Positions 2,975 to 17,739 of a DNA stretch of 21,585 bases are shown in pieces. The notes below the pieces were generated by a model that was not told the origin of the DNA, did no database searches, and saw only the letters and a program-made list of their open reading frames with translations. Origin of the DNA: a virus; the IMG/VR virus record IMGVR_UViG_3300006929_000154, positions 1 to 21,585 of that record. One strand, given 5' to 3'. Position numbers and translations under genes: made by a program. Position 1 is the first letter of the stretch. Each line of letters begins with the position of its first letter.

Positions 2975-4651
2975 TTAACCTGAATATTTACTATTAAATT
3001 CAGCCATTGCCATTTCAAATTCTTCTTGAGAATTAAGAGGTAAATAATTTCCTGTCTCTGGATCTATGATATTTGTTCTAGGATTACCTGTAATTATTCT
3101 TTCTCCATCTGGTCCTTCATATTCCATAACAGTTCTTAGCCAAGCAGATGGACTAGGAGCACCATTTCCAACACTGTCTAATCTTTCTAACCAACTCATT
3201 CTTTGATCTCCACCCGGTTTGTGTTTTGGTAGACCTCCTGTTCCTACAGCAGCTCTCATAAATACATCAGCATTAACACCTAAACCAAAATGATCAGTCA
3301 TAGCATATAAATAATCTACATTTTTTCTAGCTGCTGCAGCCCATCGACCAGAATCAAAACCATCATATCCCCAATGAGTATGTACTCTTATTTTCATTCT
3401 ATCAGCCTGTAATGCTTCATCATAGGTAGTACTAGGATCACCGGGATATACTGCTTTATCAGTTTCTGTATCATATGCTCTAAATTCAACACCACCAGAA
3501 GGATCCCAATCACTTCCTCCCCCAATTCCCCATCTTTCAAGAGTTTTTGTAATTCCACTCCATCCTGTAACAAATTTTAATGCTTCGTAAGCTGCTACAT
3601 AAGGAGCAAGGGCAGGGTTCATCAATGCTGCTGTTTGTATTGATCCACTAAATTTTCCTTCTGGAGTTCCACTAGAAAATGATTTCATAGCACTATACAT
3701 AGCAAGAAATTTTCCTCCTAATTTCATTGCATCCTTTCCAAATTTAGAGGTTTGATCTAACCAGCTAGTGTTTGAACCATCTCCTAATCTAGATACAGGA
3801 CCAGTTCCAGCAGAACCTATTGTCGTTTGAGTTCCTAACCCTGTTCCAGTCCCTCCCGGTACAGATAAACCAATATTAGAAGCAGCTAATCCTGTAGGAC
3901 CTGCTAATTGTGTTATATCACCTTGTCCTGCAAGAGATGCAGGAGGTGGACCACTACTTGGCAATCTTCCTGTTGTAGCTAATCCTGTTTTTACTTGAAA
4001 AGGATATTGAACTGTAGGTACTTCAGGTACTGGACTCCATAGATCTTTAGCTTTTTTATATGTCCATTCAGCACCTTCCATTGCTAGATCTGTAGCTGGT
4101 TTTGCTCTAGGATCACTTAATTTGGCCCATTGTTTTTCAAGCCAAGAAATAGATTCAGGATCATCTGCTTTGTCTTCAGCAGCTCTTTCTATAGCTTCTC
4201 TACGACTTCGTACTACACCAGTAGGATCATCATCAATATTAAATAATGCTTCATTATCAGTTTGTCTACCTATATCTGTAATATTTAATCCTGCAGTCTC
4301 TACTCCTCCAAAACCAGTTCCTTCCCATCCAAATAAAAGATCTGGAACACCTTCTAATTGACCTAATTGTTTTTCTCTAGCTTTTTTTTGGTCTTCTGAT
4401 AGAGTCCAAAGATTAGTTCCTGCTCCATAACCTAAAACATCATTTCTTCCTATAGTAAGAGGATTATCTTGTAATGATTTAAAAAGAGGATCTTCTTTTT
4501 CAAATTGAGGATCTATATCTTCTTTTGTAAGAAATTCAGAATATTGCTCTGCTAAAGATGGATCTGTATAAGCTACATTTATTAAACCTTCATTATCTAC
4601 TTTAGGTTTAGATACTTGAGTTACAGAAGTAGTAAGTGGATTTATAGCCAT
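2975..4651 (-). CDS. Unknown large structural-type protein
   Basis: A 558-aa protein I cannot assign. The N-terminal 180 residues are acidic and polar. Residues about 215-295 are Gly/Thr/Pro/Ser-rich low complexity. A hydrophobic helical stretch follows (GKFLAMYSAMKSF and the MNPALAPYVAAYEALKF segment at about 340-360). The C-terminal 170 residues look globular, with many W, Y, D and G, including HTHWGYDGFDSGRW. There is no signal peptide and no recognisable catalytic motif. Its ATG overlaps the stop of the preceding 86-aa gene by one base (TAATG), so its translation is probably coupled to it. The position between portal and scaffold suggests a virion, connector or internal protein; that is inference. 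Confidence 0.6.
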   Translation of the reverse strand: MAINPLTTSVTQVSKPKVDNEGLINVAYTDPSLAEQYSEFLTKEDIDPQFEKEDPLFKSLQDNPLTIGRNDVLGYGAGTNLWTLSEDQKKAREKQLGQLEGVPDLLFGWEGTGFGGVETAGLNITDIGRQTDNEALFNIDDDPTGVVRSRREAIERAAEDKADDPESISWLEKQWAKLSDPRAKPATDLAMEGAEWTYKKAKDLWSPVPEVPTVQYPFQVKTGLATTGRLPSSGPPPASLAGQGDITQLAGPTGLAASNIGLSVPGGTGTGLGTQTTIGSAGTGPVSRLGDGSNTSWLDQTSKFGKDAMKLGGKFLAMYSAMKSFSSGTPEGKFSGSIQTAALMNPALAPYVAAYEALKFVTGWSGITKTLERWGIGGGSDWDPSGGVEFRAYDTETDKAVYPGDPSTTYDEALQADRMKIRVHTHWGYDGFDSGRWAAAARKNVDYLYAMTDHFGLGVNADVFMRAAVGTGGLPKHKPGGDQRMSWLERLDSVGNGAPSPSAWLRTVMEYEGPDGERIITGNPRTNIIDPETGNYLPLNSQEEFEMAMAEFNSKYSG

Positions 4652-7072: not shown

Positions 7073-9298
7073 TTATACTCCTCCTTGTAAGTAAAGTTGT
7101 TGTTGTGTTAAATAATCTTCGTCATCTTCTTCTGTATCTTGTACAGGTCTTAAAACGGAATTGATTTGTTCGTCTATTGATTTTTCAGGTATTGGGATAT
7201 TGGGAGATGTAATATCATCTGGTACAGTATTTTTGTATGGAGCATTATATACATTTTCTTCAGCCCACTGTGCAGCTTGTGCTTCTCCTCTTATTTGTTG
7301 TTGTTCACCCATTAGTTCATATTTTTTCATTGGTGTTCCAAATGAAATAGGACTATCTGGGTATTTATGATGAATAGCAAAATCTGATTCTACATCCATA
7401 GATTTTTCTGCAGCTGCTCTATCTTTTATATTTTGAATCATTTCACGATCTGTTTTCGTTGGAAATGCAAGAGTAGCACCTATATCAGCCACATCTCCTA
7501 CAATAGGAACAATAGAAGCTCTATTAGTCCATAATCTCAATTGTCGTATATCTTCTTCATTAAGTCCCATAGCTCCAGCTATTTTATCTCCTACACTACC
7601 TTCTGGTTGAGCAAATTCTTCAGGAGAAGACATTTGATAAGCAGCTTCTGTTACTCCAATCAAACCTAATGTAACAGCCATACCTAATGGTCCTGCATAC
7701 TTACTAGCTCTTTTTGCACCTTTATATTTTGAAACCCATTGCATAAATTCTTTTTGATTTTTTGATTGAGAAAATTTTATGGCCTCATCAGCAGACATAT
7801 CTACATATTTATGATTAAGTTTAGCAGCTCGTGTTCTTTCATCGGCAGATAATTTTTCAAATTTTTTATTAGTTTCAAGTGCTTTTTTATCATCAGCTAG
7901 TATTTTTTCTTCTTTTAATAATTCTTTTTGTTTTTTAATATTTTCTAATTGTTTATCTAACGTTTGTCCTTCTGTTTGTGCTATACCTAAGTTTACTGCA
8001 GTTTCTATATTTTTTACATCTACAACTGCACCAAGAGTTCCCGGTGTTGTAGGTAATGCACCATAAAATGCTAATCCTGCATCAGATTTTTTCATATAGT
8101 TTGTAAATGTTTTATTTTTTAAATCATTTTTAGTAGCTATAAGTTCTTTGGTATCTGGAGAAATTGTATTATCCATCCAACCTGTATTAGTCATCCATGT
8201 ATGAGGAGTACTATTACTATATGCTGTTACAACAGAAGATACTCTTGCTTGCAATTTTCCAGCATCTTCAAAATCTCCAACTTGTGTTACAATTCCATAA
8301 GCTCCTCCTGTTCCTAAATGAGGTATAGGTCTTAATGTTGCCCTAAGTCTATTTGCATCTTTAGGATGTATTCCTAATTTATTATATACATCTTCGACAT
8401 GATGTCTTAAACTATGAAGACTTACATTTTCAGGTATTACACTTTTAGTATTAGGACTAGTATAAGAAATTTGTTCAGGAAATGCATTAGATAAATGTGT
8501 ATTAATTCCACCTTGAAAAGATGTTTTAAATACTATATTACCTTTTTTATCTAACTGAGTAAAACCTTCAAATAAAAGTCCCTTTGTTCGACCTCCTGCT
8601 TGTTGCCTAACAATATCTAATAAAGCTGGACTTAATACTCCTTCTACATCTCCAGCTTTAGTTGCAGTAGTTATAATTTCTCCTGTAGCAAAATCTATAT
8701 GTTCTAATCGTATTTTAGCCATATCCGAAGGTCTAAATCCTCCTAAATAAGCTAAACTAGCTACATTTTTTGCTGTTCCTTTTAATCCAGCTATAGCTGC
8801 AGTTATTTTTGGATTAAAATCAGGGGGAAATGTATATTTTCTTTGTCCTCCTTTTTTACTTTCTATAGTAAGAGCTTCCCAAGCTGTTTTTCCAATACCT
8901 CCTCGACCTCCTATAATAGGATCTGTTTGCATTGTTTTTTTAAGCCAAGATTTTCCTATAGCTGTACCTCCACCTTTAAGAACTTGATCAAAATCTAACT
9001 GTACCTGTCTTAAAAGAGGTATATCCCCTTTTCTTCCCTGTTCTAGTTTTTGAAAAGGACCATCAGCATCTATGAAAAAATCTTTAACTATATCTACATT
9101 TGAAACTACTTGTTCAGGTGTTAAATCAAGAATACTAACTAATTTATCATCTATTAATAACTTTGCTTCATCTAATAAATTAAATGTTCTTTTAAAAGTA
9201 TCTCTTCCTGTAGCTATAAAAGGTTTAAACATATCCCTTAAAGGCACATCTAAAAAGGCTTGTGCAGGTGCTGTTGAAAGTGTACGTTTTTTAACCAT
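7073..9298 (-). CDS. Large protein with tyrosine-recombinase-like core and virion-type C-terminal half
   Basis: A 741-aa protein. Residues about 160-340 look like a tyrosine recombinase catalytic domain: box I G-G-F-R-P-S-D-M-A-K-I-R-L-E-H-I-D-F with R189, candidate beta-strand Lys K214, box II S-L-H-S-L-R-H-H (H295, R298), then P-H-L-G (H327) and G-A-Y-G (Y334, candidate nucleophile; the usual H-to-Y spacing of 9 is not kept). Residues 440-500 are a charged coiled coil, 533-556 a hydrophobic helix, 594-612 a second one, and 640-741 acidic/polar. At about twice the usual integrase length, lying between large terminase and portal and starting 2 nt after the terminase stop, it resembles an ejected virion protein carrying a recombinase. 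Activity is uncertain. Confidence 0.6.
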   Translation of the reverse strand: MVKKRTLSTAPAQAFLDVPLRDMFKPFIATGRDTFKRTFNLLDEAKLLIDDKLVSILDLTPEQVVSNVDIVKDFFIDADGPFQKLEQGRKGDIPLLRQVQLDFDQVLKGGGTAIGKSWLKKTMQTDPIIGGRGGIGKTAWEALTIESKKGGQRKYTFPPDFNPKITAAIAGLKGTAKNVASLAYLGGFRPSDMAKIRLEHIDFATGEIITTATKAGDVEGVLSPALLDIVRQQAGGRTKGLLFEGFTQLDKKGNIVFKTSFQGGINTHLSNAFPEQISYTSPNTKSVIPENVSLHSLRHHVEDVYNKLGIHPKDANRLRATLRPIPHLGTGGAYGIVTQVGDFEDAGKLQARVSSVVTAYSNSTPHTWMTNTGWMDNTISPDTKELIATKNDLKNKTFTNYMKKSDAGLAFYGALPTTPGTLGAVVDVKNIETAVNLGIAQTEGQTLDKQLENIKKQKELLKEEKILADDKKALETNKKFEKLSADERTRAAKLNHKYVDMSADEAIKFSQSKNQKEFMQWVSKYKGAKRASKYAGPLGMAVTLGLIGVTEAAYQMSSPEEFAQPEGSVGDKIAGAMGLNEEDIRQLRLWTNRASIVPIVGDVADIGATLAFPTKTDREMIQNIKDRAAAEKSMDVESDFAIHHKYPDSPISFGTPMKKYELMGEQQQIRGEAQAAQWAEENVYNAPYKNTVPDDITSPNIPIPEKSIDEQINSVLRPVQDTEEDDEDYLTQQQLYLQGGV

Positions 9299-9300
9299 AA

Positions 9301-10896
9301 TTAATATCCAAATACTTGATCTTGTGGTTCATATTTCTGTGTGTACCTAGTCATTCTATGAGGACTGTGTACATTTACTAAAGTTCTACTCATCATCATA
9401 TATCTTAATGCATCATATGCATGGTCATCAGCTTTCGTGTCCACGTCTTCAGGATTAGTTTTAGACAGAGGCAACGTGGGCATAGTTCGGATAAGATTAT
9501 TGCAAGTGGAAAAAATACGAACACGAGGATTTCCATAATCATCACAAGCTAACCTTCGATGTACTTCTATCTTTCCTGCCATTCGGTTTCTGTCTGCTGG
9601 TATCCATCTTACTCCTCTTCTTATCATTGTTTCTGCTATACTAGGACCTAATCCTGTTTTATTCCAACAAGAAGAGTCCAAAGCTGCATGTTGTATTACA
9701 GGATCTTCTCTTTCCATCTCCATGATGGTATCTCCAAGTCTTTCTCCTGTAAATCCTTTGACATATAGTTCTCTATATATCCAAATATTATTATCCCAGT
9801 CAATTGCACCCCAAAGTATACAGGAAGGTGAAGCATATCCATAATCTCCTGATCTTACTCTAGCCCAACCATCTGGTACTTCAAAAGGTTCTACAACGTG
9901 CATACTTTTACTAAACTCTGTAAAGGCTGCACCTTCGGCTACATCCCAATCCCCCTCAAGTAATCTTTTTCTTTCTACTTCTGGTAAAGACATCAACATT
10001 GCTTCATATTGACCATCTTCAAACAGAAAAGGATTGTCAGTTAATCTAGCAGGTACAAACTTTCTTAAAAATAAAGGTTCATCTCCTTTTGAATGCCCTT
10101 TTGGATATTTAAGAATATCCCCACTGTCAAAATCTCTAGCCCAGAAAGGTTCATCAGGTGGTGCATGATCAAGATACATCTTTTTAACCCACCAACCCCC
10201 TACACCTCCGGGGTTTGCTGTACAACGCATGTACATATCTAAACTGGGATCTGTTGTTCTTAATCTAGATCGTAAATAATTCCATACGTATGGTGTAGGA
10301 TATTGTGTTATTTCATCTATACCTATCCAATTAAAAGCTTGTCCTTGGTATCTTGTTACATCTCTATCATCATCAACATATGAAAACCATATCTTTGCTC
10401 CGGATGGAAACTCCCATGTTGATTTAGCTTGTTTAAATACAGCACCGGGAAAAGCTTTTGTATATAGTTGTCTACTTTTATCTATTAACTCTGTTAATTC
10501 TGCCAGTGTTCTTCTTAATAACAGCCCTCGGTGATTAGGATTTGATGCATCTCGAAGTACATCTGCTAACAGTGCATATGATTTACCACCTCCGGCAGCT
10601 CCACCGTATAATATATCTCTTTCTGGAGACTCTAAAAAGATAGTCTGAGGTCCTTCATTCGGTCTAAATACAACGTCATGGTCTTTTAGATGATCTCTTA
10701 ATGCTTTTGGAACATGTTTTAGATCATCAGTTGTAACTACGGACCTTCCTCTACCTTTTAACGCATCATCTACCTTTTTAGATGCCTCCTGAGCCTTTTT
10801 TGCTGTTGCTCTAGCTTGTTTAGCCTGTTTGGTTAGCTTTTCAGCATTTCTCCGTTTGGCAGAAAGCTTTTTTTGAGTAGCAAGCTTGGCTCTCAT
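9301..10896 (-). CDS. Terminase large subunit (ATPase-nuclease core)
   Basis: The motor that pumps DNA into the prohead and cuts concatemers. From the ATG at 10896 the protein is 531 aa. A K/A-rich basic helix (1-50) comes first. Walker A is Y-G-G-A-A-G-G-G-K-S (97-106), Walker B is W-I-G-I-D-E (190-195), and a coupling-type motif T-A-N-P-G-G follows at about 226. RNase H-like nuclease acidic residues are G-D-Y-G (D351), A-A-L-D-S-S (D407) and K-A-D-D-H-A-Y-D-A-L-R-Y (D491/D495). There is no SD before ATG 10896. The frame stays open upstream to 10989 with protein-like sequence (E-E-E-K-K-K-R-G-R-P-P-K) but has no ATG, GTG or TTG there, so the true N-terminus probably lies in the overlapping upstream frame (10974-11204). 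Confidence 0.93.
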   Translation of the reverse strand: MRAKLATQKKLSAKRRNAEKLTKQAKQARATAKKAQEASKKVDDALKGRGRSVVTTDDLKHVPKALRDHLKDHDVVFRPNEGPQTIFLESPERDILYGGAAGGGKSYALLADVLRDASNPNHRGLLLRRTLAELTELIDKSRQLYTKAFPGAVFKQAKSTWEFPSGAKIWFSYVDDDRDVTRYQGQAFNWIGIDEITQYPTPYVWNYLRSRLRTTDPSLDMYMRCTANPGGVGGWWVKKMYLDHAPPDEPFWARDFDSGDILKYPKGHSKGDEPLFLRKFVPARLTDNPFLFEDGQYEAMLMSLPEVERKRLLEGDWDVAEGAAFTEFSKSMHVVEPFEVPDGWARVRSGDYGYASPSCILWGAIDWDNNIWIYRELYVKGFTGERLGDTIMEMEREDPVIQHAALDSSCWNKTGLGPSIAETMIRRGVRWIPADRNRMAGKIEVHRRLACDDYGNPRVRIFSTCNNLIRTMPTLPLSKTNPEDVDTKADDHAYDALRYMMMSRTLVNVHSPHRMTRYTQKYEPQDQVFGY

Positions 10897-11627: not shown

Positions 11628-11948
11628 TTAATCATGTCTAACTTTTCTTATACCACCACCTTTGGCATATTTTTTAATTGCACCACCTTTGTTAAGTGCA
11701 ATTCTAACTGTAAAGTTAACTTTTCCACCTCTTCCTTCATCCTTTTCAGCTCTTACATCTAAATTAACTCCGGGTGCTATATTATATCTATTTCTAAATA
11801 TAGCCTTAGCATCACCTGCATTATTAGCTTTAATAGTCTTTGTAAGAGTAAGCCCTTCTAGTCCTAATGGATCTTCTACTTTAAGTTTATCTGGATCTTT
11901 CCAACGTAACTTACCTAATTTTGTATCTGCTACTTTTAATTCAGCCAT
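11628..11948 (-). CDS. Small basic protein with cationic Gly-Lys C-terminal tail
   Basis: A 106-aa protein. Residues 1-85 appear folded, with alternating beta-type segments (LKVADTKLGKLRW, KVNFTVRIALN). The last 20 residues form a G/K/R tail, G-G-A-I-K-K-Y-A-K-G-G-G-I-R-K, nearly identical to the tail of the otherwise unrelated 95-aa protein at 17452-17739. No enzyme motif or membrane segment is seen. SD AGGA lies 7 nt before the ATG at 11948 and is embedded in the last codons of the upstream coiled-coil gene; the two genes are 1 nt apart. The tail might bind nucleic acid or an anionic surface, or be a shared targeting tag; this is speculation. Function unknown. Confidence 0.7.
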   Translation of the reverse strand: MAELKVADTKLGKLRWKDPDKLKVEDPLGLEGLTLTKTIKANNAGDAKAIFRNRYNIAPGVNLDVRAEKDEGRGGKVNFTVRIALNKGGAIKKYAKGGGIRKVRHD

Positions 11949-11949
11949 A

Positions 11950-12564
11950 TTAATTTCCTGCTAAAGGATTTGATAGTGCTCTTTCAAGCTTAACATCAAA
12001 TCGAATTTCTAGATCTTTCATTTGATCTGTTAAAAAATCTTGTCTACGTTGTGCTTCTTCTTCTAGTGCTGTACGTTTTGAATCGAATCTATCTGAAGCA
12101 TGTTGTATCAAACTATTTAAATTCTTTCCAGTATCTGTAATTACAAATTGCATATTTGTTTCTAGATCAGAAATCTTACGATGTACATTTCTATTTAACT
12201 CTCTATTATCTTCTACTATTTGATCTATATTATCCTGTACTTTATACATATCATTTTTTAAATCAGTTTTAATAGTTCTAGCACTATCCTGTGCTGAAGT
12301 TACTAATTCTTTTATAGCTTCTAATTCAACATCTACTTGTTTTTCTAAACTTGTTATAGTTTCATTAATAATTCCTATCTCTCTATTAAATCCACTAAGA
12401 TCAGGTTCTACATATAAAGCAATCTGTTCTTCCATTGCTTTCCATCTAGCATACACTTCAAAACCTCCCCAGATACCACCTCCAAGTGTACTCAAAGCTG
12501 TAAGTATTGCTATTAACTTACCTCCCCTGAACTTTACTCCTCCAAACTCTACTTCACTACTCAT
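11950..12564 (-). CDS. Membrane-anchored coiled-coil protein
   Basis: A 204-aa protein. A short polar N-terminus precedes one transmembrane segment (about 16-35: L-I-A-I-L-T-A-L-S-T-L-G-G-G-I-W-G-G-F). Residues 60-195 are a long E/D/K/R/I/L helix with heptad-like spacing, ending near P-L-A-G-N. No Cys and no cleavable signal site. One N-terminal membrane helix followed by a long coiled coil resembles inner-membrane spanins or similar envelope-associated phage proteins, but no second spanin gene is recognised with it. The ATG at 12564 overlaps the last 8 nt of the secreted 507-aa gene, implying coupled translation; no clear SD. It follows two exported proteins, so this is an envelope-directed cluster. 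Exact role unknown. Confidence 0.7.
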   Translation of the reverse strand: MSSEVEFGGVKFRGGKLIAILTALSTLGGGIWGGFEVYARWKAMEEQIALYVEPDLSGFNREIGIINETITSLEKQVDVELEAIKELVTSAQDSARTIKTDLKNDMYKVQDNIDQIVEDNRELNRNVHRKISDLETNMQFVITDTGKNLNSLIQHASDRFDSKRTALEEEAQRRQDFLTDQMKDLEIRFDVKLERALSNPLAGN

Positions 12565-14080
12565 ATTGCTGGCTTATCATCTTTTCCATTTGTAAACTTG
12601 ATCGAACTGATATATAATCAGATAAAGGATCAGGCAAGTTATTATTAGTGTATATTTCTTCTACAGCATACCAATTTGTTTGTGTTATTATATTCTGTTG
12701 TTGATATGTTCTTATATCAGGACCAAGAGCATTTACAAGTGCAAGAGTTGTTAATTGAGCTACCGGATCGTAATTACTTGGTAGAGCAGCCATAATCTCT
12801 TTTGCTTTTTCCTGTTTCTTTTCTTGTTCCTTTGTTGGTTTATTTTCTACTACTTCTTTTATAGGTTCCGGTTCCTGTTTTTCTTCCACTTCTACTTCGT
12901 CTTTAGCAGCCTCTTGCTGTTCCGGTTCAGATTCTTCCTTAACTTCTTCTTTAATTTCTGGAGTTTCTGTTTCATTTTCAGCAACTTCAACAGTCTCTGT
13001 TACTTCTTCTGTAGTTTCTGTTGGCTGTTCAGTTACTTCTTCTACAACTTCCGGTTGTACTTCTATTTCTACAGGAGCTTCCATTTCTGGCATTTTTACT
13101 TCAACAGTTTCTACTTCTACTCCTATATCTTCTAACTCTGCTACCAATGTCTCTACTTCTACCATTACTTCATCAAGAGACATGTTATCTATATCCATAC
13201 TTTGAAAAGCTTCTTCTAGTACTTCTATCGGCATAGTATTTGGCATCTCATCTAGCTGTACATTATCTATTTCTACTGGCTCTAACTCGAATTGCATAAC
13301 CATGTCCATTTCTTCCATCATGGTATCCATTTCCTGTTGTTCAGCTACTGTAGAAGAATCATACGTATCCATTAAACCTAAAGTTATCTGCTCTTCCATC
13401 TGAGTAGGCTGTACAACTTCTATCCAAGTCTCCACTGCTGTAGTAATCACATTATAATTAACAGTATATGCTACGTTATCGAAGAAATAATTCTTTTTAC
13501 CACCTATTCGGATAAATACCTTATCTAAATCTCCTGCAAAATCATGTGCACCTGAATATGTAGTAGGTGTTCCTGTATTATCTAATGTAACTTGTCCAGT
13601 ATCCCACTGTAACACATTATCATTATATCCCTTAGTCTGAAAATATCCAGTAGTATTTGATTGAGAATGATACATCTGTAATTGCCATTCTAAAGCACCA
13701 CCTTCTGATATGTGAAAATCTTCTATATTTACATATTGGTCAAAAGTAGTTAAGGAGTTTGATGTTCCTTTTCCACACTTACCAGTACCAAAATATGCAT
13801 TACAATTTGGCATACTCGCAGGACCTAGCCCACCCCAATCTAGATCCATATCACCCTCGTAACGACTGGTTACGACACCTGTTTCACTATCTAATAGATC
13901 TCCTGTTGATTTATGTTCAACAGTAACAGTAGTTTCAGTAACTGTGTCTATATGACCTTCACCTAAATGTTCTGTTTCTACTTCTTGGGTAACAGTATCA
14001 CCCTCTTCTAACATCTGTGCATTAGAGTAATAGGAGTAGAAGAAGACTACCAAGGCCAATGCCCACACCGACTTCTTCAT
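12557..14080 (-). CDS. Secreted acidic protein with Glu/Val/Thr-rich central region
   Basis: A 507-aa protein with a clear signal peptide (MKKSVWALALVVFF..., cleavage predicted near A21-Q22). Residues about 80-215 look like a beta-rich globular domain with C93 and C101 flanking G-T-G, and many Y/W/D/G. Residues about 215-440 are extremely acidic, E/V/T/P-rich low complexity, turning into mixed E/P/K repeats resembling the periplasm-spanning arms of TonB-type proteins. The last 75 residues are again globular (L-P-S-N-Y-D-P...N-W-Y-A-V-E-E-I-Y). Start chosen from SD GAGGAAA 6 nt before ATG 14080, although this overlaps the preceding gene by 59 nt. Sec export should place it in the periplasm or outside. 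No family recognised; an envelope or lysis-timing role is a guess. Confidence 0.75.
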   Translation of the reverse strand: MKKSVWALALVVFFYSYYSNAQMLEEGDTVTQEVETEHLGEGHIDTVTETTVTVEHKSTGDLLDSETGVVTSRYEGDMDLDWGGLGPASMPNCNAYFGTGKCGKGTSNSLTTFDQYVNIEDFHISEGGALEWQLQMYHSQSNTTGYFQTKGYNDNVLQWDTGQVTLDNTGTPTTYSGAHDFAGDLDKVFIRIGGKKNYFFDNVAYTVNYNVITTAVETWIEVVQPTQMEEQITLGLMDTYDSSTVAEQQEMDTMMEEMDMVMQFELEPVEIDNVQLDEMPNTMPIEVLEEAFQSMDIDNMSLDEVMVEVETLVAELEDIGVEVETVEVKMPEMEAPVEIEVQPEVVEEVTEQPTETTEEVTETVEVAENETETPEIKEEVKEESEPEQQEAAKDEVEVEEKQEPEPIKEVVENKPTKEQEKKQEKAKEIMAALPSNYDPVAQLTTLALVNALGPDIRTYQQQNIITQTNWYAVEEIYTNNNLPDPLSDYISVRSSLQMEKMISQQYE

Positions 14081-14564
14081 CAGTTATTTCCTCTTGTTTA
14101 ACATTGTCTTTTACCCACTGATCATAATCAGGTCGTTTTTCAGGATTACTAGCCCACTCTTCAGCAGCCTCTAAACCAATTTTTCCATGAAACGGACAGG
14201 GGGTGCCTGCCATTTCCATTGCTTGAAATACTCTGGCATCTTGACAGAGGAGAGCAATAGCTCCTACTTTCATGCCCATTCTATACATAGCTCTACTGAG
14301 CTTTAATCTTTCACAATTTAAGTCTTTTATTGCTGTTCCACCAGCTATTCCTAGAATCTGTGTCTGTACAGCAGCAGAAGCTGCATAACTACAAACGTCT
14401 TGATTGTTAATTACTATTGATGGAGCATTTGCTGTACTTGGTGTTCTATCTACTGTAGTAGTTCCTGATACGGTTGAACTTGTGCTAGTAACAGTATTAG
14501 TATCGGCTGCATAAGCACCTGAGAACAGCATCAGGAATACTAGTAGATAGAAAAATATATGCAT
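14022..14564 (-). CDS. Exported protein with signal peptide and C-terminal poly-Leu membrane anchor
   Basis: A 180-aa protein: signal peptide 1-19 (F-L-M-L-F-S-G-A-Y-A, cleavage before A20), a Thr/Ser-rich linker (21-48), a folded helical region with Cys residues (D-V-C-S-Y-A-A-S near 56, D-L-N-C-E-R near 83, L-C-Q-D-A-R near 107 and G-T-P-C-P-F near 122), and a C-terminal hydrophobic end, V-G-V-G-I-G-L-G-S followed by seven Leu (165-180). It should lie in the periplasm, tethered to the inner membrane. The anchor is encoded by the same DNA as the next gene's signal peptide, in another frame. The ATG at 14564 follows the PqqA-like gene by 9 nt; its SD (GAGG) is distant. The pattern M-E-M-A-G-T-P-C-P looks like a conserved phage family I cannot name. 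Confidence 0.75.
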   Translation of the reverse strand: MHIFFYLLVFLMLFSGAYAADTNTVTSTSSTVSGTTTVDRTPSTANAPSIVINNQDVCSYAASAAVQTQILGIAGGTAIKDLNCERLKLSRAMYRMGMKVGAIALLCQDARVFQAMEMAGTPCPFHGKIGLEAAEEWASNPEKRPDYDQWVKDNVKQEEITDEEVGVGIGLGSLLLLLLL

Positions 14565-14573
14565 TAATAATAA

Positions 14574-14648
14574 TTAGACCTCTGCACAAGCATAGCAATT
14601 AATTTCCAGACCTACAGATACTTCTTTAACGATTGGTGATTTCCACAT
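14574..14648 (-). CDS. pqqA: PqqA-like ribosomal peptide (putative PQQ precursor)
   Basis: A 24-aa peptide. It has the PqqA pattern: M-W, then P-I-V-x-E (5-9), V-G (12-13), E-I-N-C-Y (15-19) and A-E (22-23). In PqqA the Glu and Tyr three residues apart (here E15 and Y19) are joined by the radical SAM enzyme PqqE with PqqD and become the PQQ skeleton; Methylobacterium PqqA, from memory, has W..P-I-V-x-E..V-G-x-E-V-T-S-Y-x-x-A-E at the same spacing. Two Cys (18, 21) flank Tyr, giving C-Y-A-C. The start is firm: SD AGAGGA, 9-nt spacer, ATG. It begins 5 nt after the small-terminase stop and ends 9 nt before the exported 180-aa gene. No pqqB-E is in the window, so processing would need host enzymes. 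It could be a different peptide using the same motif. Confidence 0.75.
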   Translation of the reverse strand: MWKSPIVKEVSVGLEINCYACAEV

Positions 14649-14653
14649 GTTTA

Positions 14654-15067
14654 TTATTCCTCTATTGTTACGGTAGGCATTTCCTTCTTGGCAGGCATTA
14701 ACACCACACCATGAAGAATCTTACCTTCCATTTCTACTTTTTCTTGTTTTCCAATACCTACTCGATCAAGTAGGGTTTGAGCTGCTTTTAGACGCAACTC
14801 GGCTCGTGGATGTTCACCCACATCGTTCATTCCTTCTACTACTCTGTTTATTGCTTGTACAGAATGTGCAGCCAGTTCTGTTTTAGCTGCTTCTAATATC
14901 TCGTCTGATAGTGTTTTTAACAATAGGCTACGTGAACTTTTAGAATATCCAGCTTTTTCTAGAGCTAGATTTATGTTACCACCAGTGTCAAATAGATTGG
15001 ACAGAAATGATTTCTGTTTATCTGTTAATTCTTTTTTCTTTTCTGCTAGTATACCACTGTGCTGCAT
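14654..15067 (-). CDS. Probable terminase small subunit
   Basis: A 137-aa protein starting at the ATG overlapping the previous stop by one base (TAATG); an upstream in-frame TTG at 15079 would add four residues but has no usable SD. Residues 8-50 look like the helix-turn-helix of Terminase_2-type small subunits: L-T-D-K-Q-K-S-F-L, then A-L-E-K-A-G-Y-S-K-S-S. They are followed by a long helical segment, A-x-N-R-V-V-E-G-M-N-D...A-E-L-R-L-K-A-A-Q-T-L-L-D-R-V-G-I-G-K, and a beta-like end (H-G-V-V-L-M-P-A-K). Small terminase recognises phage DNA and recruits large terminase. It is unusually far from large terminase here, with four larger genes, the PqqA-like peptide and the SNase in between. Assignment is by motif and context. 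Confidence 0.7.
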   Translation of the reverse strand: MQHSGILAEKKKELTDKQKSFLSNLFDTGGNINLALEKAGYSKSSRSLLLKTLSDEILEAAKTELAAHSVQAINRVVEGMNDVGEHPRAELRLKAAQTLLDRVGIGKQEKVEMEGKILHGVVLMPAKKEMPTVTIEE

Positions 15068-16251
15068 TAGTAGTTCCAACTTCCTTTGTATACTCTATAT
15101 GGACTTATATAGTTTTTAGTATCAGCACCAGATTTACCTCTAGTCTTTACAGCATAAGAAGCTGTACCTCTTTTTTTCTCTGTTTGATACCTTCTTTTTT
15201 TCATTATTGTACCCCTACCTGTTACATCTCCATAGGCAGGTCCTTGTAAAGCATCAGCTCTTTTTAACGATGGTATTCTATCAAAAAAATAAGGAAGTAT
15301 TTCTTGATCTATTATTTCTTTCATTTGTCGAGTGAACCATTTTGGAACCATATCTTTACTATTTTTAGATTGATAGAATATATAAGGATGATCATGGTAC
15401 TGCAATACTGTTTGTATAGCAGTACCATGATATTTATCATTTAATCTTTTTCTTAAACTAGGATCATTCCTAACTAATTCTCTAAATCTTCTAAATCCTC
15501 GATGTTGTAATTCATGATCTAATGTCTCTAATTGCTTCCAAGCTGGTTTTAATTTAGAAATATTACTTCTAGTTTTTACTTTTTTTACATAGGAAGGACT
15601 CCATGCAAATTGTTCTCCTTTTTCTTTTGAAGGCTGAAACTTTAAATCTCTTATTGATTCAAGTTGACCATAATCTGTTGGTTGAGTAAATACATTAAAC
15701 GTATCCTTTTCTCTTGGAATCAATCCTATTAAATCTTTTACTTTTGAAACTGCATGATAACCTGTTCCTTTACCCTTTCTCTCAACTTGTTCAAATGTAT
15801 AAGGATGTCTATATTTCTTATCTCCATATGTTCTCATCCTATCACTTGACCATCTAGGTGGTCCATATTTTAATTCATAAGTTCTTCTTGTACCAGTCAT
15901 AGCTTCAGTATCTGTACGTTTAGATTCAGGAAATTGTTCTTGTGCTTTTTTGTACATATCTTCATAACCAATTTCCTGTAAATTACCATGAATATGAGAT
16001 AACCTTGGATCAGTTTGTCCTTGAGACCAAAAAACTCCATGCAAACTTGGGTCAGGTATTTGAGTTTGTACTATTCGAGGTTTTTCTGTACCATAATCAG
16101 CACCAATTTTTCCCATAGGATTAAGTGGAGAGTGCATAAAATATTCCGTATTTATTGCATCTATACTTAATGGATTAGGTTCTACTTTTACTTTTTTCTT
16201 CTTCTTTTTTGGTGTATTACCATAATTCCAAGTTCTTTGTTTACGTGCCAT
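15067..16251 (-). CDS. Basic virion-type protein with HExxH metalloprotease-like motif
   Basis: A 394-aa strongly basic protein. The N-terminus holds R-T-W-N-Y-G-N followed by a run of six Lys. The centre is rich in R/K/W/Y/H. At about residues 243-252, T-L-D-H-E-L-Q-H-R-G contains H-E-x-x-H, the zinc-binding core of many metallopeptidases; H-G-T and Y-H-D-H-P follow 30-45 residues later and may supply further ligands. The protein ends S-W-N-Y. Start chosen at the ATG sharing its A with the upstream TGA (TGATG), 8 nt after GGA; an upstream TTG exists but lacks an SD. No signal peptide. Position before small terminase suggests a structural or ejected protein. The peptidase call is only a motif match. 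Confidence 0.6.
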   Translation of the reverse strand: MARKQRTWNYGNTPKKKKKKVKVEPNPLSIDAINTEYFMHSPLNPMGKIGADYGTEKPRIVQTQIPDPSLHGVFWSQGQTDPRLSHIHGNLQEIGYEDMYKKAQEQFPESKRTDTEAMTGTRRTYELKYGPPRWSSDRMRTYGDKKYRHPYTFEQVERKGKGTGYHAVSKVKDLIGLIPREKDTFNVFTQPTDYGQLESIRDLKFQPSKEKGEQFAWSPSYVKKVKTRSNISKLKPAWKQLETLDHELQHRGFRRFRELVRNDPSLRKRLNDKYHGTAIQTVLQYHDHPYIFYQSKNSKDMVPKWFTRQMKEIIDQEILPYFFDRIPSLKRADALQGPAYGDVTGRGTIMKKRRYQTEKKRGTASYAVKTRGKSGADTKNYISPYRVYKGSWNY

Positions 16252-17451: not shown

Positions 17452-17739
17452 CTATTTATATCTGGCCTTACGTACACCACCACCCTTGGCATATTTTTTT
17501 ACAGATCCACCTTTTTTGAATGGACCAAGGTCTCTTATATCGTTTACTATGGTTGCCCCCGGCCAATTCTTTCCTGTTAATCGTTTATATCTTTTTTGGT
17601 CAAGGTCAGATATAGCTTTACCTTTTTCACCCATTGCTATTTGTCTTTCTATTCTGGCTATAAATTTCTGATCGGAATCGGATATAGCTTTACCACCTTT
17701 GTCTTGATCTGCATCAGATAGGGTTCTTCCATTAGACAT
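17452..17739 (-). CDS. First gene of the leftward operon: repeat protein with cationic tail
   Basis: A 95-aa protein with three copies of an S-D-x-D-Q repeat (T-L-S-D-A-D-Q at 6-12, A-I-S-D-S-D-Q at 18-24, A-I-S-D-L-D-Q at 42-48), the last two preceded by G-K. It then has G-K-N-W-P-G, and a C-terminal tail K-K-G-G-S-V-K-K-Y-A-K-G-G-G-V-R-K shared with the 106-aa protein at 11628-11948. The SD is GGAGA 7 nt before the ATG at 17739. It is the first gene after the leftward promoter (17846-17873) and a 5' hairpin, so it should be well transcribed. No family recognised; the tail is very basic and flexible and may bind nucleic acid. Confidence 0.7.
   Translation of the reverse strand: MSNGRTLSDADQDKGGKAISDSDQKFIARIERQIAMGEKGKAISDLDQKRYKRLTGKNWPGATIVNDIRDLGPFKKGGSVKKYAKGGGVRKARYK

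Follow-up and report, generated by a model that had tools for sequence, protein, structure and literature searches.

A phage-borne pqqA gene that may supply host enzymes with the consumed precursor of PQQ

What is a phage to do with the precursor peptide of pyrroloquinoline quinone (PQQ) if it carries none of the enzymes that convert it? The question is raised by a gene of 24 codons, ATG to TAA, at positions 14574..14648 (minus strand) of the window, the 21,585-base stretch of a virus record analyzed here. An earlier note had described an ORF of this size, preceded by AGAGGA, between the small terminase gene and a gene for an exported-type protein, and we find it at 14648..14574 on the minus strand. 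The Shine-Dalgarno sequence (14658..14663, minus) lies within the final codons of terS, 9 nt ahead of the ATG. Its product, MWKSPIVKEVSVGLEINCYACAEV, matches both curated models of the PqqA family, a test set beforehand: in profile searches TIGR02107 scores 30 bits against a cut-off of 20 (E=3.4e-7) and PF08042 scores 24.3 bits against 21.1. Every residue listed in the earlier note is present in the peptide, including E15 and Y19 of the ExxxY motif, the pair that forms PQQ. No homologue of pqqB, C, D or E is encoded in the window, as had been claimed. The TIGR02107 cut-off was not exceeded in any of 14 control genomes or five complete related phages, and a PHROGs search with the window peptide returned no family that covers pqqA. 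Position alone suggests that the gene belongs to a late operon.

The surroundings of pqqA are those of a phage genome, with a host-type metabolic gene flanked by terS and phage proteins. Directly upstream is terS (14654..15079, minus; PF03592, 28.5 bits; phrog_51). Downstream, pqqA adjoins a gene for a 180-residue protein with a signal-peptide-like N terminus and a hydrophobic C terminus (14022..14564, minus; phrog_20531, E=8.4e-14, function unknown), which neighbor mapping also finds without pqqA (locus L005). The next gene encodes a 507-residue protein, again with a signal-peptide-like N terminus (12557..14080, minus), that is repeatedly found next to pqqA in the clade (cluster c2). The other edge of this cargo region is formed by terL (9301..10896, minus), which is of the HMO-2011 type (phrog_979, E=2.2e-59) and whose product shares about 52% identity with the large terminases of Roseobacter phage CRP-13, Pelagibacter phage HTVC115P and HMO-2011. 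The portal protein matches PF23899 and phrog_1216, and no DNA polymerase gene was identified within the 21.6 kb window. Judged by its terminase, from which alone the group label is taken, the window phage is HMO-2011-like.

Several other features of the window deserve mention. Between the portal gene and terL, positions 7073-9298 (minus) encode a 741-residue protein whose N-terminal half resembles, weakly, a tyrosine recombinase domain (PF00589 below cut-off; phrog_1, E=6e-8), an unusual element within a structural module. An SNase/thermonuclease-like gene (PF00565; 11241-11603, minus) lies in the terS-terL cargo region. The small proteins encoded at 11628-11948 and 17452-17739 (minus) have similar lysine-rich C-terminal tails, KKYAKGGGIRKVRHD and KKYAKGGGVRKARYK; they differ otherwise, and the common motif is C-terminal.

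The interval between terS and terL is variable. A TerS search, blind to the peptide, yielded 43 loci, 38 of which span the whole interval that runs from terS to the gene preceding terL. These intervals are about 0.6 to 4.3 kb long; pqqA is present in 20 and absent from 18. Some phages whose TerS is 92-98% identical to that of the window have no pqqA (L004-L007), indicating that gain or loss of the gene is recent, and because about half of these closely related intervals are without it, pqqA is dispensable. In remoter members (L061 and similar) pqqA is found ahead of terS instead. Nor is it a group-wide trait of HMO-2011-type phages, as it is missing in the complete genomes of HTVC115P, CRP-13, HMO-2011, HTVC103P and ctYwJ313. 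HMO-2011 itself carries a lone gene for the alpha subunit of methanesulfonate monooxygenase about 2.5 kb before its terL, which is a parallel instance of orphan metabolic cargo.

Where it is present, the gene is under selection. Because searches with the EINCYACAE pattern are circular for the peptide core, the assessment of conservation was restricted to samples obtained through neighboring genes: the TerS-drawn sample (25 loci with pqqA, eight distinct peptides) and one from another phage group drawn through a GroES-like neighbor (PqqA in 41 of 80 loci, 19 distinct peptides). In both samples M1, W2, P5, E9, V12, G13, L14, E15, I16, N17, C18, Y19 and C21 are invariant. The earlier note had asked whether E15 and Y19 are conserved across related phages, and both stand unchanged at all 25 and 41 loci, which were collected independently of the peptide. 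For residues 13-23, pN/pS is 0.024 and 0.065 in the two samples, indicating strong purifying selection on the core; for residues 2-12 it is 1.17 and 0.45. An SD-like site precedes pqqA at 25/25 loci of the terS set and 40/41 of the groES set, compared with 8.5% of random positions. The window gene is conserved in independently assembled relatives.

Lone pqqA genes are widespread among viral sequences. In IMG/VR, the alpha-type motif EINCYACAE occurs in at least 119 stretches and the beta/gamma-type pattern GFE(V/I)TMY in at least 120, with a full PqqA-like ORF in all of the latter that were listed. Among the alpha-type matches listed, one group consists of HMO-2011-like phages, a second has a terL nearest to those of HTVC027P/HTVC023P (about 40%) with pqqA between the portal gene and groES, and a third is T4-like, nearest to HTVC008M and Melnitz; further unassigned contigs also carry the gene. 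At least three lineages of alpha-type phages therefore carry a lone pqqA, at different loci, and in T4-like phages both peptide types are found near gp5. None of the 361 viral loci listed, which are partial, contains pqqB, C, D or E or a PQQ alcohol dehydrogenase gene; by contrast, pqqB is present in 90 of 110 bacterial loci. We therefore rejected the idea that the viral loci are misclassified bacterial contigs. Since the contigs are partial, some of the genomes could hold pqqB-E beyond the contig, and since some contigs also appear twice, the viral totals do not equal numbers of independent genomes.

The gene is also present in cultured phages. A tblastn search of 50,697 phage records (INPHARED) with the beta/gamma-type peptide gave 12 matches, nine of them to phages isolated on Methylophilales (P19250A, Venkman, MEP301, MEP401, MEP402 and four Melnitz strains); every isolate phage matched (9/9) thus infects methylotrophs. 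The other three are one metagenomic genome and two records named Acinetobacter phage MD-2021a. The latter pair was set aside: the one inspected (L517, CAKLQF020000010.1) holds a bacterial pqqABCDE operon beside the polyphosphate kinase gene ppk and is therefore probably a mislabeled or chromosomal contig. The same search with the window peptide, a second alpha-type peptide or a Gluconobacter-type peptide gave no match in INPHARED. All five isolate records tested pass TIGR02107, and in each the gene has an ATG, a stop codon and a purine-rich SD-like site (L516, MZ577097.1, 2995-3066; L512, L513 and L514, 3001-3069; L515, 621-689). In the isolate records pqqA is either unannotated, as in P19250A, MEP301, Venkman and MEP402, or called "hypothetical"; the Melnitz annotation has, over this gene, an ORF that runs on the other strand (gp152). 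PQQ goes unmentioned in the publications on MEP301, MEP401/402 and Venkman, and in the Melnitz paper it appears just as a medium ingredient. The isolate set excludes the Methylophilales phages EXVC038S, MEP431-434 and HIM624-A (NCBI taxonomy), and we do not claim that the gene is universal. The peptide type fits the presumed host, with GFEVTMY in methylotroph phages and EINCYACAE in the others.

Which bacteria might the window phage infect? The nearest bacterial peptides come from small (0.8-1.7 Mb), AT-rich marine alphaproteobacteria that share a family with several single-cell genomes titled Rhodospirillaceae. Across 28 genomes of this family, PqqA exceeds the cut-off in 23 and PqqE in 24, and PQQ alcohol dehydrogenase matches are found in 11 of the 13 genomes examined, eight of them over the cut-off. 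At least six family genomes (L166, L184, L179, L167, L183 and L271) also contain an orphan pqqA in a conserved AKR-LysR-pqqA-MFS locus (in L166 at 3536-3610, in L184 at 7774-7848). This orphan is the closest bacterial DNA to the window gene, differing at 12 of 75 nucleotides compared with 16 of 75 for the operon copy, and in L166, L184 and L179 the orphan encodes exactly the peptide that some phages have. EINCYACAE-pqqA loci of other lineages (L168, L191, L240, L249 and L254) also carry LysR homologues, with about 55% identity. GC content is similar in the window phage and the family, about 0.31 against 0.345. The window terL was not found in the 28 genomes, a result that does not exclude this family as host. 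We regard the family as a candidate source of hosts for the window phage. As to the expectation that hosts possess pqqDE, PqqE is common in this candidate family, which has the closest peptides. A literature search for AEGEAN-169 and PQQ found no paper.

Considering these observations together, we propose that the window gene is a phage-borne pqqA, an auxiliary metabolic gene that supplies the consumed PQQ precursor to PqqB-E of the host; we put the probability of this reading at roughly 0.8. During infection the phage pqqA would be translated, and its product would be bound by host PqqD and crosslinked at E15-Y19 by host PqqE. The crosslinked peptide would then be trimmed by host proteases and matured to PQQ by host PqqB and PqqC, and the resulting cofactor would keep periplasmic PQQ-dependent alcohol dehydrogenases loaded and running. 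The phage would bring the consumable, not the machinery: pqqA alone would suffice because one PqqA is spent per PQQ while PqqB-E are reusable. In sequence terms, the model is based on a full-length PqqA-family peptide with the reactive Glu and Tyr, selection on the core and the lone occurrence of the gene. It also draws on the recurrence of host-matched versions among unrelated phages, and on bacteria in which a near-identical PqqA is accompanied by PqqE and PQQ alcohol dehydrogenases and, in several, by a second, orphan pqqA. One methylotroph has five pqqA copies, three of them outside operons and one rising with PQQ synthesis, and in cell extract 70-80% of added PqqA peptide is converted to PQQ (PMC9851590). 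In Acetobacter, PQQ increased by 29% with pqqAB, compared with about eightfold with pqqABCDE (PMC7936290); given these yields, precursor supply may not necessarily be limiting. Overall, the interpretation offered in the earlier note is supported, with the family match and the invariance of E15 and Y19 in its favor.

Could the peptide instead act against the host pathway? As a decoy it would occupy host PqqD/PqqE and lower PQQ or divert SAM, for example slowing some host process with which phage growth has to compete. Retention of the leader and core for PqqD/PqqE recognition, without the remaining pathway, would suit such a role. A decoy, however, has no need for both reacting residues and a whole core held at pN/pS 0.02-0.07. 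Moreover, the isolated carriers infect methylotrophs, in which methanol oxidation is PQQ-dependent, and a lytic phage that depleted the cofactor would hurt its own yield. We consider a decoy improbable, even as the best placed of the alternatives to precursor supply.

Another explanation is that pqqA was acquired with other cargo and brings no benefit. The site is a variable one, and the gene is missing from 18 of the 38 complete intervals of related phages, as would be the case for a passenger. Purifying selection on the core, the maintained SD sites and recurrence in unrelated lineages at different loci argue against this, and we regard it as slightly less probable still than a decoy.

We also asked whether the two cysteines flanking Tyr19 (C-Y-A-C) mark a different ribosomally synthesized and post-translationally modified peptide (RiPP), which a radical SAM enzyme, be it host PqqE or a different one, would turn into a compound distinct from PQQ. 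C18 and C21 do not vary among the alpha-type viral copies, and the earlier note had suggested that they could change the chemistry. When 84,980 species genomes were scanned for EINCYACAE, 110 stretches matched, and most of their titles name Alphaproteobacteria or unresolved Proteobacteria. Of the 105 bacterial peptides extracted, 87 are encoded beside pqqB or pqqC, ten are orphans and eight come from loci truncated where the stretch ends. Because 87 of these PqqAs are operonic, C-Y-A-C is ordinary in alphaproteobacterial PqqA and the cysteines are ruled out as a sign of new chemistry; the methylotroph phage versions do not have them. A separate product is accordingly very unlikely. Finally, with just 24 codons an ORF might resemble PqqA by chance, an idea we dismiss almost entirely, as the curated cut-offs are passed and the gene is conserved across contigs and lineages.

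The broader pattern suggests that phages of PQQ-dependent bacteria repeatedly and convergently acquired pqqA alone, in at least three alpha lineages and several methylotroph lineages, each with a host-matched core. With less confidence than for the window gene itself, we favor the view that supply of a RiPP substrate is a widespread, overlooked strategy and that the precursor limits PQQ turnover in infection. If so, a gene of 24 codons, shorter than the minimum length of common gene callers, would be among the commoner auxiliary genes of phages of PQQ producers, and one overlooked or labeled hypothetical in those cultured methylotroph phages that we inspected. Phages of methanol- and alcohol-oxidizing bacteria would then adjust a periplasmic redox cofactor, with a bearing on one-carbon cycling. 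Existing phage-host pairs would allow a direct test of what limits PQQ supply. Viral pqqA is not new in itself, and the caution that such calls may exist was right: pqqA was proposed as an auxiliary metabolic gene in the Lake Baikal methylotroph virus VP_266 in 2020, together with methanol dehydrogenase (PMC7678222), and viruses from reservoir sediment have been described that carry pqqA, pqqE and pqqD (PMC13188868). The breadth of viral pqqA and its presence in isolates appear to be unreported so far; we found no report on its breadth, on marine alphaproteobacterial phage groups or on cultured methylotroph phages, which is weak evidence, as the search was without most subscription journals.

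Comparison with known systems places the window gene more precisely. Operonic alphaproteobacterial PqqA (TIGR02107/PF08042), such as MWKSPVVREVAVGLEINCYACAEI of marine MAGs L198, L201 and L224, has the same length and matches the same family models, with W2, P5, E9, G13, E15, Y19, both cysteines and A22-E23 in common. Leader residues differ, and the phage copy stands without pqqBCDE in a terminase/cargo region. The orphan chromosomal pqqA of the AKR-LysR-pqqA-MFS locus is likewise a lone gene, but the bacterial one has conserved neighbors and a full operon elsewhere in the host. VP_266 also has a virus-borne pqqA; it adds methanol dehydrogenase, whereas the window phage is HMO-2011-like on its terminase and has no PQQ enzyme in view. 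P19250A, Venkman, MEP301, MEP401/402 and Melnitz share with the window phage a lone pqqA and an SD-like site. Theirs is of the beta/gamma type (GFEVTMYVMNK and similar), with known hosts and an unannotated or hypothetical gene, whereas the window peptide is of the alpha type. A parallel in logic is psbA of cyanophages, with which the phage provides whichever component of a host system is consumed most quickly. The supply logic would be the same for pqqA, with the difference that psbA encodes a protein subunit and pqqA the substrate of a cofactor pathway.
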